Assembly: GCF_003259835.1 (NCBI RefSeq)
Contig: NZ_QLMI01000004.1
Span: 248,001 to 312,000, forward strand
DNA from: Flavobacterium aquaticum
GTDB lineage: Bacteria > Bacteroidota > Bacteroidia > Flavobacteriales > Flavobacteriaceae
DNA length: 64,000 nt
Direction of reading: 5' to 3'
How positions within the stretch are numbered: the stretch's first letter is position 1; each line of letters begins with the position of its first letter. Below are positions 1,899 to 37,678 of this stretch, piece by piece. The position numbers and the translations under genes are program-made. Under the pieces are notes generated by a model, which was not told where the DNA came from, did no database searches, and saw only the letters and a program-made list of their open reading frames with translations.

Positions 1899-3032
1899 TT
1901 AATTTAATTTTTTATAGATAGAAATCACTTCATTTTTAACTTTTAGGTAGTGTAACTTTGGAACAATTTCTACTTGATTTAAACTTTCAGCTTTTTCAAA
2001 ATTACAATTATTGACAGCGTGAATTACAATTTCTTTTATTTTTTCTACGTCTTCACAATCTTCAATCAACAAGCCATTGACTCCGTTTTGAATTAACTCA
2101 GCCGTTGCGCCACCTGGATTAGATTGAATTGGAAAAGCTCCCATAAAAATGGCTTCTAACATGGTATTTGGCATTCCGTCTGAATTACTATTTCCTATGT
2201 AGATTAAGGATTTTCCCATTAATTTTAGGACTTCTTCGTGTGGAATTTTTCCTAAAATCTTGAAATTCTTCCACTTTTTTAATTCCGAATTGGTTACATA
2301 TTCAAAAGTTTGAGGATCAGATCCAAAAACTACAATTTCATAATTAAGTAATTCTTCTTTTAAAGTTGCTATCGCTTTTAGAACCGGAATCGCTCTTCCA
2401 GAACGACCTTGAAAACCTTTTATCAGAATGGTTTTTCGTTGCGAAACAGGCAATTTGTAAGTTTCCATTTCGTTTAACTCAAAACCACCTCCACCAGGAA
2501 ATACACCTAAGAATTCACCTATAAATCCGTATTGTTTTGCTATTTCATAATCGCGCTTGCAATCGGTGAACAAATAATTAATTCGTGGTAAAACACGTTT
2601 AATATCTTTTAAGTAAGCAGGTTCGTTTTGAAAATAAAACAAATCGCTTCCCCAAGAAGAATAAATCCATTTTTGAGTTGGATTTTTCTCCATCACTTCA
2701 ATTATTGGAGAACAAGACAAGTACAAAGCAAAGCTGTGTACTACATCGGGCTGAATTTCATTCAAATAATTTTCAAAAGTTTTAGCTGTGTCTTTTTCGT
2801 TAAATTGCTGAATGAATTTATATAATTTCGGAAACTTATTTTTAACCAATAGGCGTCCTGGATAATCCCATTTTAATTTCCAATCTACTTTTTGTTTTAT
2901 CCATGAAATTTTTGAAACCGGCTGGCTCATTCCTGTAATATCAAACCAATACACTTCGTGTCCGGCATCTTGTAGTTGATTGGCCCAACGAAAGAAATGC
3001 AAAGTAGGTATGGAAACCATTAAAATTTTCAT
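1899..3032 (-). CDS. Glycosyltransferase, GT4-like (GT-B fold)
   Basis: The 377-residue protein has the two-Rossmann layout of GT-B enzymes. The C-terminal half carries GNSNSDGMPNTMLEAIFMG, the donor-binding region of GT4 enzymes with its conserved Glu. It should transfer a sugar from a nucleotide donor during glycan assembly on the cytoplasmic face of the inner membrane. Its ATG overlaps the TGA of the upstream gene (ATGA), which suggests translational coupling. Donor and acceptor cannot be read from sequence. Confidence 0.8.
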   Translation of the reverse strand: MKILMVSIPTLHFFRWANQLQDAGHEVYWFDITGMSQPVSKISWIKQKVDWKLKWDYPGRLLVKNKFPKLYKFIQQFNEKDTAKTFENYLNEIQPDVVHSFALYLSCSPIIEVMEKNPTQKWIYSSWGSDLFYFQNEPAYLKDIKRVLPRINYLFTDCKRDYEIAKQYGFIGEFLGVFPGGGGFELNEMETYKLPVSQRKTILIKGFQGRSGRAIPVLKAIATLKEELLNYEIVVFGSDPQTFEYVTNSELKKWKNFKILGKIPHEEVLKLMGKSLIYIGNSNSDGMPNTMLEAIFMGAFPIQSNPGGATAELIQNGVNGLLIEDCEDVEKIKEIVIHAVNNCNFEKAESLNQVEIVPKLHYLKVKNEVISIYKKLN

Positions 3033-4102
3033 GCTACAAAATTTATAACTAAAACAATTGTATTCGTTTGTCTATTAAATGAATAGTGATAAGGGCAATT
3101 ACGATAATTTTTTATAATTTCTTCTAAAACCAGATTGTTTACATTTTCCATTTCATAAAAAGGAAGTGCTTTTTTTCCTAGAATTCGTTTAATACGATTT
3201 TTATTTTTCTCTGCTTTAGAAAGGTCATGAATTTCAACTTGAATTACTTCATTTTTGAAATTTTTCAATTGCGCTAATAGAGCATTCACTTGAAGTGAAG
3301 AAGAGGAAATAATTATTTTCTTTTCAGGAAATTGCAATTTTTGATAATCAGCATCATGAGTTAATTGTCCCCAATTTTGATACTGATTAACTACCGTACG
3401 TTTATTGTTTTGCGTTTGAATCATGTAAGCATGATTGATTCGCTCTAGCTGTGAATGATAAGGATGCGTGCTTTTTTTACTGCGATACGCTTTTGGATGC
3501 CATTGATGTTTTACCAAAATTTGTTCTTCATAAAACACAACTTGTAATCCTAAATTTTGCATTCGAATATGCGCATCGGTATCTTCTGCTCCCCAACCTT
3601 GATAAAACTCATCAAAACCATTGACGCTTTTTAAACTTGCTGTTGGGAACATCGTATTTCCCGTTACATCTTTACCGCCTTTGAAATCAACTTTAAAATC
3701 TTCGAAACTTTGTTTTTTAACCGATTCTGTCTCACTTAAAAATCCGTATTGAAAATAATGTACGATAGTAGGATTTGCAACACTTTTCAAAGTTTGAATA
3801 TAGTTGGGATGAAAAATCAAATCGATATCACCTACCACAAAATAAGGTTGGGTAGCTTTTTGAAGCGCAATATTAATTGAACGACATTTGCTCCACAACT
3901 GACCCGAAGTAGGACAAGAAATAAATTGAATTTGAGGATACTTAAGAACCAATGCATTTAGTTCGTTCAAATACGTTTCGTTTGAACCATAATCAACCAG
4001 AAACCATTCAAAATCAATATCTGATTGGTTTTGAAGAGAATCCAAACAATTTTTAATGATTCGAATATCGCGATTTCTATTGGTTAAAACTAAGGTAATC
4101 AA
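3029..4102 (-). CDS. Glycosyltransferase family 2 with Glyco_transf_7C-like segment
   Basis: The N-terminus (MITLVLTNRNRDIRIIKNCL) starts a GT-A domain. VGDIDLIF near residue 90 supplies the DXD-like metal site. GWGAEDTDAHIRM near 168-180 matches the galactosyltransferase C-terminal motif found in chondroitin-type polymerases and related GT2 enzymes. The start is TTG, overlapping the upstream TGA as TTGA. No better ATG lies nearby, so coupling probably sets this start. The C-terminal 100 residues are unassigned. It probably adds one sugar to the ABC-exported glycan; specificity is unknown. Confidence 0.78.
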   Translation of the reverse strand: MITLVLTNRNRDIRIIKNCLDSLQNQSDIDFEWFLVDYGSNETYLNELNALVLKYPQIQFISCPTSGQLWSKCRSINIALQKATQPYFVVGDIDLIFHPNYIQTLKSVANPTIVHYFQYGFLSETESVKKQSFEDFKVDFKGGKDVTGNTMFPTASLKSVNGFDEFYQGWGAEDTDAHIRMQNLGLQVVFYEEQILVKHQWHPKAYRSKKSTHPYHSQLERINHAYMIQTQNNKRTVVNQYQNWGQLTHDADYQKLQFPEKKIIISSSSLQVNALLAQLKNFKNEVIQVEIHDLSKAEKNKNRIKRILGKKALPFYEMENVNNLVLEEIIKNYRNCPYHYSFNRQTNTIVLVINFVA

Positions 4103-5945: not shown

Positions 5946-6519
5946 TATAATTTTTAAAGAAGAAATCTTTATTTGCTCTTATTTTTTCATCATCCCAGTT
6001 CCACCATTCTGAAGTTAGAAGTATTTTTTTTGAAGTTTCTGCGAATCTATCTTTTATAAACTTAGCCGGAACTCCTCCTACAATGGTGTAAGGTTCAACA
6101 TCTTTTGTTACTACGCTTCCAGTTCCAATTATAGCTCCATGACCAATTTTAATATTTGGCAAAACACTCACATTATCTCCAATCCAAACATCACTTCCTA
6201 TTTCTATTGAAAGTTTGTTTGTTTGAAGATTAGCGTTTTTTGGTTTTTCTTGAAAATATTTTTTGTAAAAACCATATTGCATCACTGCAAAATTGTAATC
6301 GTGATTAGATGTAATAAATTTTATATCCCTACCTAATGCGCAAAATGAACCAATTTTAACTTTACCTGAACCTCTTATTTCAAAATTTCCATTGTGAAAA
6401 GATTCTTTACCAACTTCAATATTTTTTGTAGGCAGAATTAGCACTGGAAGTTTTTCGTATTCCAATACATTTTTCAACTTTTTTGAAAACCAACGTTTTA
6501 TTTTTGATTTAATTCCCAT
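5932..6519 (-). CDS. Hexapeptide-repeat acyltransferase (CatB/WbbJ-like)
   Basis: The 195-residue protein has left-handed beta-helix repeats. The stretch containing IEIGSDVWIGDNVSVLPN, then IGHGAIIGTGSVV, then VGGVPAKFIKDRF is the standard acetyl-CoA-binding end of the xenobiotic/sugar O-acetyltransferase family. It probably acetylates a sugar of the exported glycan in the cytoplasm. It overlaps the Wzt gene by 22 bases and the pyruvyl transferase gene by 14, consistent with tight co-expression. The acceptor is unknown. Confidence 0.82.
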   Translation of the reverse strand: MGIKSKIKRWFSKKLKNVLEYEKLPVLILPTKNIEVGKESFHNGNFEIRGSGKVKIGSFCALGRDIKFITSNHDYNFAVMQYGFYKKYFQEKPKNANLQTNKLSIEIGSDVWIGDNVSVLPNIKIGHGAIIGTGSVVTKDVEPYTIVGGVPAKFIKDRFAETSKKILLTSEWWNWDDEKIRANKDFFFKNYNANE

Positions 6520-7784
6520 TTTGCATCAGAATAAACATATAAATTCCCTTTTGGAATTCTTCCTGTTCCATAAACATCATTAGGCACTACTGTAAAACCT
6601 AAACATTCTTCTTTTATATCAATAGTAGTATTATTTTCTGCCAAAGCAATTGTAACTACGTAATCACCCGGCATTAATTTTAAATCTGAAGCAGTTGCTT
6701 TAAAAACAAAATCTCCTTTTGAATCAAAAACAAAATCCGTTATTTCATGTGATCGTATAGCTGCAATTCTTGTACCACTGGCAGTAGAAATAATAATACT
6801 TGCCTTTAGATTATTATACATTTGTTTTGCTAACACAAAAATGGAAAACTCTAAAATATTTCCCATTAAAACACCACTTGAATTTGAACGCTCTCCTTTT
6901 AAATTCAAAGAACTAACTTCAAACTTAGAAATTTGAATTGGAGCTTCTTTTTCTTCAAACTCAATGTAATTATTACTATTAAATGAAAATATGCTACTTT
7001 TCAAATACAAATCGATAGTTTCATCTATATCACCAAAGAAAACAGTTTTTCCATTCTCAATCAACATTCCTTTGGTACACAAACTTCTAACCGCTGCCAT
7101 ATTATGACTCACAAACAAAACAGTTCTACCTTCGCTTTTAGAAATGTCTTGCATTTTACCAATTGCTTTCTTTTGAAATTCGGCATCACCAACTGCTAAC
7201 ACTTCGTCGACAACTAAAATTTCAGGTTCTAAAAAAGCCGCTACAGCAAAAGCCAAACGAACGGTCATTCCACTACTGTAGCGTTTTGTTGGCGTATCAA
7301 TATAACGTTCGCAACCGCTAAAAGCAATGATTTCATCTAATTTTGACGTGATTTCTTTTTTAGTCATTCCTAAAATAGCACCATTCAAATAGATGTTTTC
7401 TCTACCTGTTAACTCCGGATTAAAACCGGTTCCTACTTCTAATAAAGAAGCAATTCTTCCTCTTGATTTAATTACTCCAGTTGTTGGTGCAGTAACTTTT
7501 GATAAGATTTTTAATAAAGTTGATTTCCCAGCTCCATTTTTTCCAATGATACCTAAAACCTCTCCTCTATTTACCTCAAAATTAATATCTTGTAATGCCC
7601 AAACATAGTCACTATTCCCTTTTGAACTTCTATCATTGGTTTCTCCCACTTTCAAATAAGGATCTTCTTTTCCACGAATAGCATGCCACCATCGATTCAA
7701 ATCATGACTCAATGTTCCTGTACCCACAGTTCCTAAACGGTATTGTTTAGAAATGTTTTCGGCTTTTAATATGATATCTTTCAT
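6498..7784 (-). CDS. wzt: Polysaccharide ABC exporter ATP-binding protein (Wzt-type)
   Basis: The 428-residue protein has an ABC ATPase domain in about residues 1-245. Walker A GKNGAGKST lies near 80-88, the signature is YSSGM, Walker B is LVVDEVLAVGD near 193, and the H-loop is SHNMAAV. Residues from about 280 to 425 form a beta-rich Wzt C-terminal domain, which in O-antigen exporters recognises the modified chain end. It energises export of an undecaprenyl-linked glycan through Wzm. Its partner is not directly adjacent, because a four-helix-bundle gene lies between them. Confidence 0.9.
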   Translation of the reverse strand: MKDIILKAENISKQYRLGTVGTGTLSHDLNRWWHAIRGKEDPYLKVGETNDRSSKGNSDYVWALQDINFEVNRGEVLGIIGKNGAGKSTLLKILSKVTAPTTGVIKSRGRIASLLEVGTGFNPELTGRENIYLNGAILGMTKKEITSKLDEIIAFSGCERYIDTPTKRYSSGMTVRLAFAVAAFLEPEILVVDEVLAVGDAEFQKKAIGKMQDISKSEGRTVLFVSHNMAAVRSLCTKGMLIENGKTVFFGDIDETIDLYLKSSIFSFNSNNYIEFEEKEAPIQISKFEVSSLNLKGERSNSSGVLMGNILEFSIFVLAKQMYNNLKASIIISTASGTRIAAIRSHEITDFVFDSKGDFVFKATASDLKLMPGDYVVTIALAENNTTIDIKEECLGFTVVPNDVYGTGRIPKGNLYVYSDAKWELNQK

Positions 7785-7793
7785 TCTAAAAAT

Positions 7794-7822
7794 AGTGAGA
7801 AGTGAATGGTGAGAAGTGAATT
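7794..7822. repeat. Short purine-rich repeat, left flank of four-helix-bundle gene
   Basis: Two direct copies of GTGAGAAGTGAAT lie at 7795-7807 and 7809-7821. A related pattern in the opposite orientation lies at 8224-8252, on the other side of the small gene. Confidence 0.65.
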
Positions 7823-7829
7823 GTAAAAA

Positions 7830-8177
7830 TTACTTTTTCAACAAATAATTTCGTAATCCAACTATCATTTTCTTTACTTCATTAATTTTATTTTCAATTT
7901 CTTTATTCTCAATTATGTATTTTAAACGAACAGCTATCAAGTATTGTGTTTCTAATTCTGACAATGATCCTAAAGCAATATAAAGAAATTGTATGAACTC
8001 TTTATCGCTTTTGCTTGCAGCACCTTCAGAAATATTTGAAGGAACAGAAACCGATGCTCTTCTAATCTGATTTGTAAGTCCAAACTTTTCATCATCAGGA
8101 AAAAACTTAGATAAAGCATAAATGGCTTCAACCAAATCCATGCTTTTTTTCCAAACATCTAAATCCTTGTGATTCAT
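7830..8177 (-). CDS. Four-helix bundle protein (23S rRNA IVS / S23-like family)
   Basis: The 115-residue protein matches the four-helix-bundle family. It has the DLDVWKKSMDLVEAIYALS N-terminus, LTNQIRRASVSVPSNISEG in the middle and ALGSLSELETQ in helix three. Relatives are found in intervening sequences of 23S rRNA, as accessory proteins of diversity-generating retroelements (Avd), and very often as orphan genes in flavobacteria. No reverse transcriptase or variable repeat is near. It interrupts the usual wzm-wzt pair and is flanked by inverted low-complexity repeats, which suggests insertion as a unit. Function is unknown. Confidence 0.85.
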   Translation of the reverse strand: MNHKDLDVWKKSMDLVEAIYALSKFFPDDEKFGLTNQIRRASVSVPSNISEGAASKSDKEFIQFLYIALGSLSELETQYLIAVRLKYIIENKEIENKINEVKKMIVGLRNYLLKK

Positions 8178-8223
8178 CTTTTCATTTACAAATTACTATT
8201 CTTTATTATTTCCTAAATTTAAC

Positions 8224-8252
8224 TCCTCACTTTTCACCTCTCACTCCTCACT
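8224..8252. repeat. Short pyrimidine-rich repeat, right flank of four-helix-bundle gene
   Basis: The sequence is built from CCTCACTTTTCACC and CTCACTCCTCACTC. Its reverse complement has the same GTGARRAGTGA pattern as 7794-7822. It ends exactly against the wzm stop codon at 8253. Confidence 0.65.
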
Positions 8253-9125
8253 CTAAACTGTATCAATAAAACTCTTTTCTGTTTTATTAAAAATCAATAA
8301 TCCTACAAAAAACACAACGATTGTTACCACAACAGTATAAAGTAATCCTGAAACAGAAATACTTCCTTCGTTTAACAACATATAACGTGCTGTTTCTATC
8401 ACATAAGCTAATGGATTGTATTCTATTAACCATCCAAAAGTGGGTAACTTTTCTTTTAACAACACCATTGGATACATAACGGCAGACACGTACATTAAAA
8501 GCTGAACTCCAAATCCGACCAAAAAACTCAAATCGCGATATTTTGTAACCAATGAAGAAATTATCATTCCTAATCCTAAACCAAGAATTCCCATTATAGC
8601 TACTAATATTGGGAAAAACAAAGTTGCTGTTGTGAATTGGAATGTTACTTTACCAATCATAAAGTAATAGATATAAAAGGCAATAAAAATTAAAAACTGA
8701 ATACCAAATTTCACCAAATTAGACATCACAATTGATAATGGAACAATAAGTCTTGGAAAGTATACTTTTCCAAATATTGAAGCGTTTTTCTTAAAAGTAT
8801 CAGAGGTATCATTTAAACAAGAAGTAAAATAATTCCACACCATAACACCACCTAAATTAAATAAGAAAGCAGGTGTTTCTCCCGTTTTAATTCCGGCTAC
8901 ATTATTAAAAATAATCGTAAAAATAACAGAAGTAAATAAAGGCTGAATCAAATACCACAATGGTCCTAAAATGGTTTGCTTATAAACCGTTACAACGTCG
9001 CGCTTTACAAACAACATAAGTAAATCTCGATAACGCCAAACTTCTTTAAGATTTAATGAGAAAAATTTGTCCTTTGGAGCAATCTCAAACAACCATTCTT
9101 CTTCTGAAAATTCAGTTTTATTCAT
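8253..9125 (-). CDS. wzm: Polysaccharide ABC exporter permease (Wzm-type)
   Basis: The 290-residue protein is an ABC-2 type permease with about six hydrophobic segments. The cytoplasmic N-terminus leads to LLMLFVKRDVVTVYKQTILGP, a conserved entry motif of polysaccharide exporters, and then to WYLIQPLFTSVIFTIIF. With Wzt it moves a lipid-linked glycan across the inner membrane. It is the first gene of the minus-strand operon running down to 740. A well-formed Bacteroidota promoter lies 30-60 bases upstream. Confidence 0.9.
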   Translation of the reverse strand: MNKTEFSEEEWLFEIAPKDKFFSLNLKEVWRYRDLLMLFVKRDVVTVYKQTILGPLWYLIQPLFTSVIFTIIFNNVAGIKTGETPAFLFNLGGVMVWNYFTSCLNDTSDTFKKNASIFGKVYFPRLIVPLSIVMSNLVKFGIQFLIFIAFYIYYFMIGKVTFQFTTATLFFPILVAIMGILGLGLGMIISSLVTKYRDLSFLVGFGVQLLMYVSAVMYPMVLLKEKLPTFGWLIEYNPLAYVIETARYMLLNEGSISVSGLLYTVVVTIVVFFVGLLIFNKTEKSFIDTV

Positions 9126-33364: not shown

Positions 33365-33370
33365 AAAAAA

Positions 33371-33400
33371 AGTTGGGAGATGGAAGTTGGAAGTTGGGAG
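33371..33400. repeat. Short purine-rich intergenic repeat
   Basis: GTTGGGAGATGGAAGTTGG followed by AAGTTGGGAG contains three near copies of a GTTGGRAG unit. It lies between the divergent recR and symporter genes. It resembles the other short periodic repeats at 7794, 8224 and 37639. Confidence 0.5.
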
Positions 33401-33492
33401 TTTCCTAAAAATAATTATAAATGAATTTTCTTTTAACATATCGTTTCTAACTTCTATCTTTTTCCTACTTTAGCACAACTAAAAACCAATAT

Positions 33493-37623: not shown

Positions 37624-37638
37624 GTTATTTTTTTGTTT

Positions 37639-37678
37639 CAGGTTTCAAGTTTCAAGTTTCAGGTTTGCAACTTGAAAC
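37639..37678. repeat. Tandem 7-mer repeat with inverted tail
   Basis: Four 7-base units, CAGGTTT, CAAGTTT, CAAGTTT and CAGGTTT, fill 37639-37666. AACTTGAAAC at 37669-37678 is the reverse complement of GTTTCAAGTT at 37642-37651, so the transcript can fold into a hairpin. It lies between the two guanidino-enzyme genes. Confidence 0.65.

Follow-up and report, generated by a model that had tools for sequence, protein, structure and literature searches.

An S23 four-helix-bundle gene between inverted heptamer arrays: a probable mobile cassette of bacterial operon gaps

RESULTS

The wzm-wzt junction of Flavobacterium aquaticum

The DNA analyzed here (the window) is a stretch of 64,000 nucleotides from the genome of Flavobacterium aquaticum, in which wzm and wzt, two genes of one sugar-export operon, are separated by 468 bases with a single open reading frame (ORF) of at least 90 amino acids (Table 1). 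A previous, sequence-only reading of this DNA had reported a block with a four-helix-bundle gene between the two genes, and the block was found at that very place. The 115-residue product matches TIGR02436 (132 bits; cut-off, 24) and PF05635 (23S_rRNA_IVP; 136.6 bits; cut-off, 33.8), in both cases along nearly the whole model. Homologues of this S23 protein in the PDB (2gsc and 2rld) contain five chains per entry and are named only "uncharacterized." The Avd model NF033474 gave 25.2 bits, below its cut-off of 80, and bAvd gave 24 bits, also below cut-off. No enzyme is encoded in the cassette, the 115-residue ORF being the only one at the 90-residue minimum, and with wzm and wzt as its neighbors, the S23 gene is not adjacent to a reverse transcriptase gene. 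The sole RVT_1 match of the F. aquaticum genome (G000) sits on a different contig, and a search of that genome for PF01797 (Y1 transposase) found none.

Table 1. Positions of the cassette, its neighbors, and gene-less arrays in the window
Feature	Position	Strand	Remarks
Cassette stretch	7785-8252		Includes the TIGR02436/PF05635 gene and both arms
wzm (ABC2_membrane)	8253-9125	-	Host operon gene, upstream neighbor
Upstream arm	8222-8252	-	Four GTGA(N3) units, 7-nt spacing, sense; adjoins wzm stop codon
Leader	8178-8221	-	Upstream arm to start codon
S23/four-helix-bundle gene, 115 aa	7830-8177	-	TIGR02436 and PF05635 matches
Downstream arm	7791-7821	+	Four units, 7 nt apart, with orientation opposite to that of the upstream arm (cores read TCAC in sense)
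wzt (ABC_tran and Wzt_C)	6498-7784	-	Host operon gene, downstream neighbor
Gene-less period-7 array, GGAAGTT type	33370-33404	.	Beside recR; inverted-partner scores 15 and 20, below threshold
Gene-less period-7 array, GTTTCAA type	37628-37669	.	Between two codirectional genes; inverted-partner scores 21 and 19, below threshold

Each arm is built of four heptamers. On the minus strand, the GTGA cores of the upstream arm occupy positions 8248 to 8251 (directly at the wzm stop), 8241 to 8244, 8234 to 8237, and 8227 to 8230; the TCAC cores of the downstream arm, in sense orientation, follow at positions 7816 to 7819, 7809 to 7812, 7802 to 7805, and 7795 to 7798. Since the arms share this core while the other three bases of the unit vary, the inversion is one by unit and not base for base. 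The low-complexity repeats described earlier are indeed inverted, with GTGA against TCAC cores, and the upstream one abuts the wzm stop, but their unit is 7 nucleotides rather than 13. The predicted duplex of the two flanks has an energy of -38.1 kcal/mol, against -21.8 ± 3.7 kcal/mol in shuffled sequences, none of 200 shuffles being as stable, with the spacer bases pairing imperfectly.

The cassette lies between two protein genes and not inside an rRNA gene. An Rfam scan of 40 loci at gathering scores, including that of the window (L001), gave no rRNA match and only two tRNAs, both in one locus (L259), as matches, and a known RNA family in the arms was rejected for these loci. Carriage of the S23 gene by phages found no support in a tblastn search of 50,697 phage records, which gave no match.

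Elsewhere in the window, at positions 11 to 337 and 338 to 740, an orphan GIY-YIG gene adjoins repeated palindromic CTTCGACTC.GCTCAG.GTGACA units (a 121-nucleotide repeat in 1.9 copies); this may be a second, different repeat-bounded gene.

Inverted flanks in the genome, the genus, and other phyla

The F. aquaticum genome contains six TIGR02436 genes, located on six contigs. Comparison of their flanks, proposed together with the cassette idea as a check on it, bore the idea out: by eye, all six copies have arrays of period 6 to 8 on both sides, with a different unit in each. Their inverted scores ranged from 31 to 45; in one copy (L002), the direct score (37) exceeded the inverted one (35). 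Both neighbors lie on the strand of the gene in five of the six copies, the upstream neighbor of the remaining one (L006) being on the other strand. Among these neighbors are genes that, on the basis of their translations, we take to be ruvB with a queG-like gene and scoA and scoB, encoding CoA transferase subunits.

For the genus, we selected 95 loci (35 initial ones and 60 of 80 further places), representing the higher-scoring family members among 342 matches in 61 genomes. In each, 250 bases of the upstream flank were aligned with the reverse complement of the downstream flank, with a threshold score of 26 that was set after a first look at the data; three loci with short flanks were dropped. 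An inverted match reached the threshold in 70 of the remaining 92 loci and fell short of it in 22. The corresponding numbers were 24/92 for the direct orientation, 30/460 for mispaired flanks of different loci, and 1/88 for windows shifted by approximately 1 kb (P = 6e-24 for inverted flanks versus shifted windows, with loci that are not all independent). As for the earlier proviso that such repeats might be scattered at random across gaps, inverted pairs are rare 1 kb away, although other gaps of genomes with the gene do contain period-7 arrays singly (see below).

Similar results were obtained in wider samples. From at least 578 species-genome loci, we took the best 80 by protein similarity, 78 of which had sufficient flanks; 56 of these 78 showed inverted flanks at the threshold and 22 did not, compared with 11/78 for direct and 12/390 for mispaired flanks. 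Bacteroidota contributed 28 of 43 and other phyla 28 of 35, with positives in, among others, Clostridia, Acidobacteria, Planctomycetes, Nitrospirae, Verrucomicrobia, Deltaproteobacteria, and a Nomurabacteria genome. In a class-level set of 23 Bacteroidia loci (5 of 28 were left out, where the motif rule found no ORF), the inverted orientation scored in 16/23, mispaired flanks in 32/506, and the direct orientation in 1/23. Finally, eight plasmid loci, seven of these eight being cyanobacterial, were hand-picked from 42 records; seven of the eight had inverted flanks, with heptamers such as GGGAACA and TAGGGAG. The sequence-only reading is extended as follows: the unit is 7 nucleotides long and differs between copies, the association spans phyla, and gene-less arrays exist.

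On plasmid pANA02 of Anabaena sp. 90, an S23 cassette (L177 and L265) is found in a type I-D CRISPR operon, with cas6 and cas4 as its neighbors; an annotated diversity-generating retroelement protein Avd and reverse transcriptases are encoded on this plasmid as well. In Flavobacterium columnare, Table 5 of a published study lists, under phage elements, a four helix bundle gene between the genes for guanylate kinase and nicotinic acid mononucleotide adenylyltransferase (PMC5524665), which may be another such cassette.

Periodicity, polarity, and orientation

A strict periodicity test detected arrays in 130 of 356 arms but in only 9 of 351 control segments. Loci in which both arms passed numbered only 36 of 178; the two arms in the window are among those that fail this filter. 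The predominant period was 7 (81 arrays), followed by 8 (41), 9 (7), and 6 (1). Arrays most often had four units (43 arrays), followed by five (28). Read from the outside toward the gene, 88% of the 64 left arms and 91% of the 66 right arms had a positive GC skew, i.e., the arrays have a G-rich inward polarity. A TRAP-like organization, with four conserved contiguous bases and a variable spacer, was not supported as a general feature, conservation of the best four adjacent columns over 105 arrays being 0.949 compared with 0.946 after column permutation. An example of array growth is seen in L150 (approximately positions 2368 to 3186, the wzm-wzt gap of genome G010), where long GTGAATA-type runs flank the gene on both sides.

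The gene is mostly inserted in the sense of its surroundings. In the genus, both neighbors are on the strand of the gene in 25 of 31 site clusters and both are opposite in one, so that 25 of the 26 clusters with codirectional neighbors are sense (P = 8e-7). Among the best 80 cross-phylum loci, 57 of 61 between codirectional neighbors are sense and 4 are antisense. By way of background, adjacent ORFs share a strand in 189 of 249 pairs from sampled F. aquaticum DNA, a rate that is not informative on sense versus antisense, for which the expectation is one half. An exception to the sense rule is L179 on plasmid pNe_5 of Nostoc edaphicum, where the cassette is antisense between two ribonucleotide reductase genes.

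Concerted change of the two arms and sharing of the unit

Grouping of the 95 genus loci by site gave 31 clusters that share no flanks with one another, so that the pattern is to a large extent old and vertically inherited; in clusters of 15, 12, and 12 loci, many species retain the gene at one site. Eleven clusters had three or more usable members. In these, the upstream arm matched the downstream arm of its own locus with a mean score of 34.2 (n = 69), whereas it matched that of another species at the same site with 27.0 (n = 522), and none of 2,000 permutations reached the observed mean. In two of the 11 clusters, arms matched no better within than between loci. The unit of a single site thus changes from species to species, and both arms of a copy change together.

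The unit was shared in 28 of 30 pairs of nonorthologous copies with proteins at least 70% identical, although 25 of these pairs derive from four site combinations, i.e., from few sites; one combination (L042 and L049) includes two 97%-identical copies less than 3 kb apart on one contig. Between site clusters, sharing dropped to 26% of 47 pairs at 60 to 70% protein identity and to about 3% below 60%. The unit as an overall function of protein distance was rejected by a Mantel test over the 31 site clusters (rho = 0.05, P = 0.30). Taken together with the sharing in close pairs, this indicates that the link reflects whole cassettes that descend from a recent common ancestor and now sit in different surroundings; it does not bear on deep specificity.

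Filled, empty, and gene-less junctions

The gap was taken as the bases that follow the upstream protein match, counting the stop codon, up to where the next gene was inferred to start. As anticipated when a comparison of the wzm-wzt junction in relatives was first suggested, the site is empty in the nearest relative, with a gap of 16 bases (identity, 93% for wzm and 98.6% for wzt). Altogether, 13 of 30 loci (this relative and 12 others, several with wzt only about 60% identical) have gaps of 3 to 27 bases, and a further eight have 55 to 101 bases. The alternative expectation, i.e., a gene present at this site in all relatives without repeats, therefore did not hold. Two loci, L136 (531 bases) and L150 (819 bases), each contain a four-helix-bundle gene and their own GTGA-type arrays, greatly expanded in L150; both genes are among the family matches of the genus. 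In two others, the gap is longer and the gene is absent, one of them having a CAGTGTT-like array (by eye). Four of the 30 loci have no wzt in the stretch, and the one left is F. aquaticum's own.

The scoA-scoB junction was surveyed by eye, likewise in 30 loci. Cassette sequence was seen in three (gene integrity being known for F. aquaticum's own copy only), gene-less inverted pairs in three, single arrays in four, and other short inserts in four, while 16 were empty, with gaps of 3 to 11 bases. In a tree of scoA and scoB, the closest branch to the cassette of F. aquaticum is an empty site, its sister with a support of 0.99 (nucleotide identity, 94.6%); next outward come a gene-less pair of another unit (0.98) and then a single array of a third unit (0.66), so that four close species differ in state. 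Additionally, near-identical gene-less pairs (L100 and L108) occur on distant branches, and recombination of the flanks may also play a part at this junction.

Because empty gaps measure only a few bases (3 to 27 at wzm-wzt and 3 to 11 at scoA-scoB), a target-site duplication is not definable. With filled and empty sites at both junctions and related copies, sharing the unit, at unrelated sites (the latter at few independent ones), the cassette resembles a transposable element in the wide sense. The proposal of a gene cassette with its own ends is, in this respect, supported.

Gene-less arrays

Besides the cassette, the window contains two gene-less period-7 arrays (Table 1), which are possibly array-only derivatives of such cassettes. 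In ten genomes with TIGR02436 matches, 37 intergenic period-7/8 arrays were found away from four-helix-bundle genes in 1,370 kb (2.7 per 100 kb), two of the ten genomes having none. Only 1 of 13 intergenic arrays had an inverted partner at a score of 26 within 1.5 kb; the idea that single arrays are clear inverted pairs was rejected for the other 12. In 410 kb sampled from five Bacteroidia genomes without TIGR02436, the number of intergenic period-7/8 arrays was zero. These five comprised four of 22 genomes without a match, picked for having a same-genus partner with matches, and G041, and one supplied half of the length. Arrays being rare where TIGR02436 is absent is thus a suggestive observation, made on hand-picked genomes with one dominant in length.

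DISCUSSION

A mobile cassette and its rivals

We consider it probable that the locus represents a mobile cassette in which an S23 gene is bounded by its cognate heptamer arrays and that it is related to the S23-bearing intervening sequences (IVSs) of 23S rRNA. Filled and empty states exist at two junctions, arms change in concert, close protein relatives elsewhere keep the unit, and gene-less pairs and single arrays sit at a cassette junction. In the model that we propose, an array of about four 7-nucleotide units, the S23/four-helix-bundle gene, and the same array inverted would enter operon gaps between genes, mostly in sense, leaving both neighbors intact. The S23 protein, with homologues that have five chains in the crystal, would recognize the units of its own array on nucleic acid, thereby marking both the cassette and its array-only, MITE-like derivatives for copying, and the strand chemistry would be left to host enzymes. 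The cassette presumably has no promoter of its own and would be expressed by read-through of the operon, in which case sense insertions would be favored. Some of the heptamer repeats between bacterial genes would originate as array-only copies, and S23-bearing 23S rRNA IVSs would represent this kind of element within rRNA genes. The route of movement itself is inferred. As for a resident enzyme, RVT_1 is absent from 29 and Y1_Tnp from 21 of the 61 genus genomes, some of which are incomplete; G054, G053, and G039 have neither, yet contain 9, 6, and 6 family genes, so that a resident reverse transcriptase or Y1 transposase is apparently not needed.

A real rival to this model, or else an addition to it, is an mRNA IVS, in which the arms would be selected as an RNase III-cut stem in the operon transcript, releasing the S23 message, leaving the neighbors unharmed, and covarying for pairing, with movement being rare and incidental. 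The window arms pair far better than shuffles, the arms change in concert, the gene is in sense in operons, and the Coxiella burnetii 23S rRNA IVS, as described in PMC4990558, combines an S23 ORF with a 28-bp terminal stem and RNase III excision. Shuffling the unit order in 26 loci with two clear arms showed that the real order pairs somewhat better (mean z, -0.68; 18/26), a weak signal of in-register pairing; hairpin selection alone was rejected, but pairing itself is compatible with this signal. A stem, however, needs neither a 7-nucleotide periodicity nor a G-rich inward polarity, nor a unit common to copies in different surroundings; the spacer bases of the window arms pair imperfectly, and gene-less single arrays are left unexplained. 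We regard this as an unlikely full account, though the most serious of the alternatives.

Two further explanations appear improbable. One is a retroelement-like cassette moved in trans by a reverse transcriptase, S23 acting as Avd does in diversity-generating retroelements. The distant kinship to Avd (NF033474 and bAvd, both below cut-off), the single RVT_1 match in the F. aquaticum genome, and sense insertion in transcribed DNA, which suggests an RNA step, are in its favor, but it is at odds with the 29 genus genomes that lack RVT_1, including the three that also lack Y1; cassettes in such genomes may have been acquired in the past via a transient enzyme. The other, to which we give an equally small chance, is a host gene with a cellular role (e.g., RNA binding or defense), autoregulated via the flanking arrays, its apparent mobility reflecting gene loss and horizontal exchange of operon segments. 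Long retention at one site, as in the three largest clusters mentioned, and the near-identical gene-less arrays on distant scoA-scoB branches, which fit flank recombination, agree with such a role, but 31 site clusters without shared flanks among 95 loci, the differing states of four close species at scoA-scoB, and the existence of gene-less pairs do not. Ordinary slippage repeats arising in any operon gap, with the S23 gene as a bystander, would account for the gene-less and mostly single period-7 arrays in intergenic DNA of the same genomes, but we consider this highly improbable, since slippage makes no inverted pairs around one gene family, period-7/8 arrays numbered zero in the 410 kb sampled from genomes without the family, and inverted pairs appeared in only 1 of 88 windows shifted by 1 kb.

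The mobile S23 cassette can be read more widely, as a domain-wide, transposase-free mobile class in which a noncatalytic S23 ring protein and its own 7-nucleotide arrays coevolve and host enzymes copy them into operon gaps. Most intergenic heptamer repeats, those of Xanthomonas and cyanobacteria included, would then be ends or gene-less offspring, and S23-bearing 23S rRNA IVSs would be the rRNA branch. We put the chances of this wider reading at somewhat less than even. If it is true, the cassette would be a class of its own, the S23-bearing IVSs being already known.

Comparison with known systems

IVSs of 23S rRNA that bear S23 genes are a known kind of selfish element. As in these, the cassette of the window has an S23-family ORF between complementary ends and, in keeping with what PMC4990558 states for the IVS of C. 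burnetii, a sporadic distribution and horizontal spread; that IVS also has tandem heptamers in front of its S23 ORF. Unlike an IVS, the cassette lies between protein genes, both of its ends are heptamer arrays, its unit differs between copies, and gene-less arrays are found at such sites. If the cassette model is true, the origin of S23-bearing 23S rRNA IVSs would be explained.

REP sequences with RAYT transposases, as well as MITEs, are inverted repeats that have spread in intergenic DNA; in autonomous elements, two copies enclose the gene of the cognate protein. The cassette resembles them in having inverted repeats around a cognate protein gene in an intergenic location but differs from REP/RAYT systems in that it has no Y1 or other transposase and in that its repeats are tandem heptamer arrays, with a sequence that varies between copies. 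To the Avd proteins of diversity-generating retroelements, the likeness is one of distant protein homology (25 bits to NF033474), far below the curated cut-off of 80 bits, and there is no adjacent reverse transcriptase.

In the open-access literature, we found no paper joining S23 genes with heptamer arrays in general, the C. burnetii study (PMC4990558) having heptamers before one S23 ORF. Intergenic heptamer repeats have themselves been described from Xanthomonas and Nostoc (GGGNATC type), where, according to PMC4692102, four units are preferred, inverted pairs number 70 and 75 in two Xanthomonas genomes, and the repeats are mostly located between aligned ORFs, with the G-rich strand being the coding strand after a stop and the noncoding strand before a start. 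The same paper gives the function as not known and the repeats as generally without association with mobile elements. TAACTGA repeats (PMC4679880) are another intergenic repeat of period 7. The cassette arms differ from the repeats of PMC4692102 in being tied to an S23 gene ("S23" and "helix bundle" occur zero times in that paper) and resemble them in their period of 7, preference for four units, inverted pairs, and polarity relative to stops and starts. On the basis of these likenesses, we infer that the two may have a common origin. The link between S23 genes and heptamers gives both problems a testable partner, in that a protein can be studied together with the repeat that is cognate to it and with sites that are either filled or empty, and, if true, it would provide a source for the puzzling seven-base repeats of bacterial genomes.
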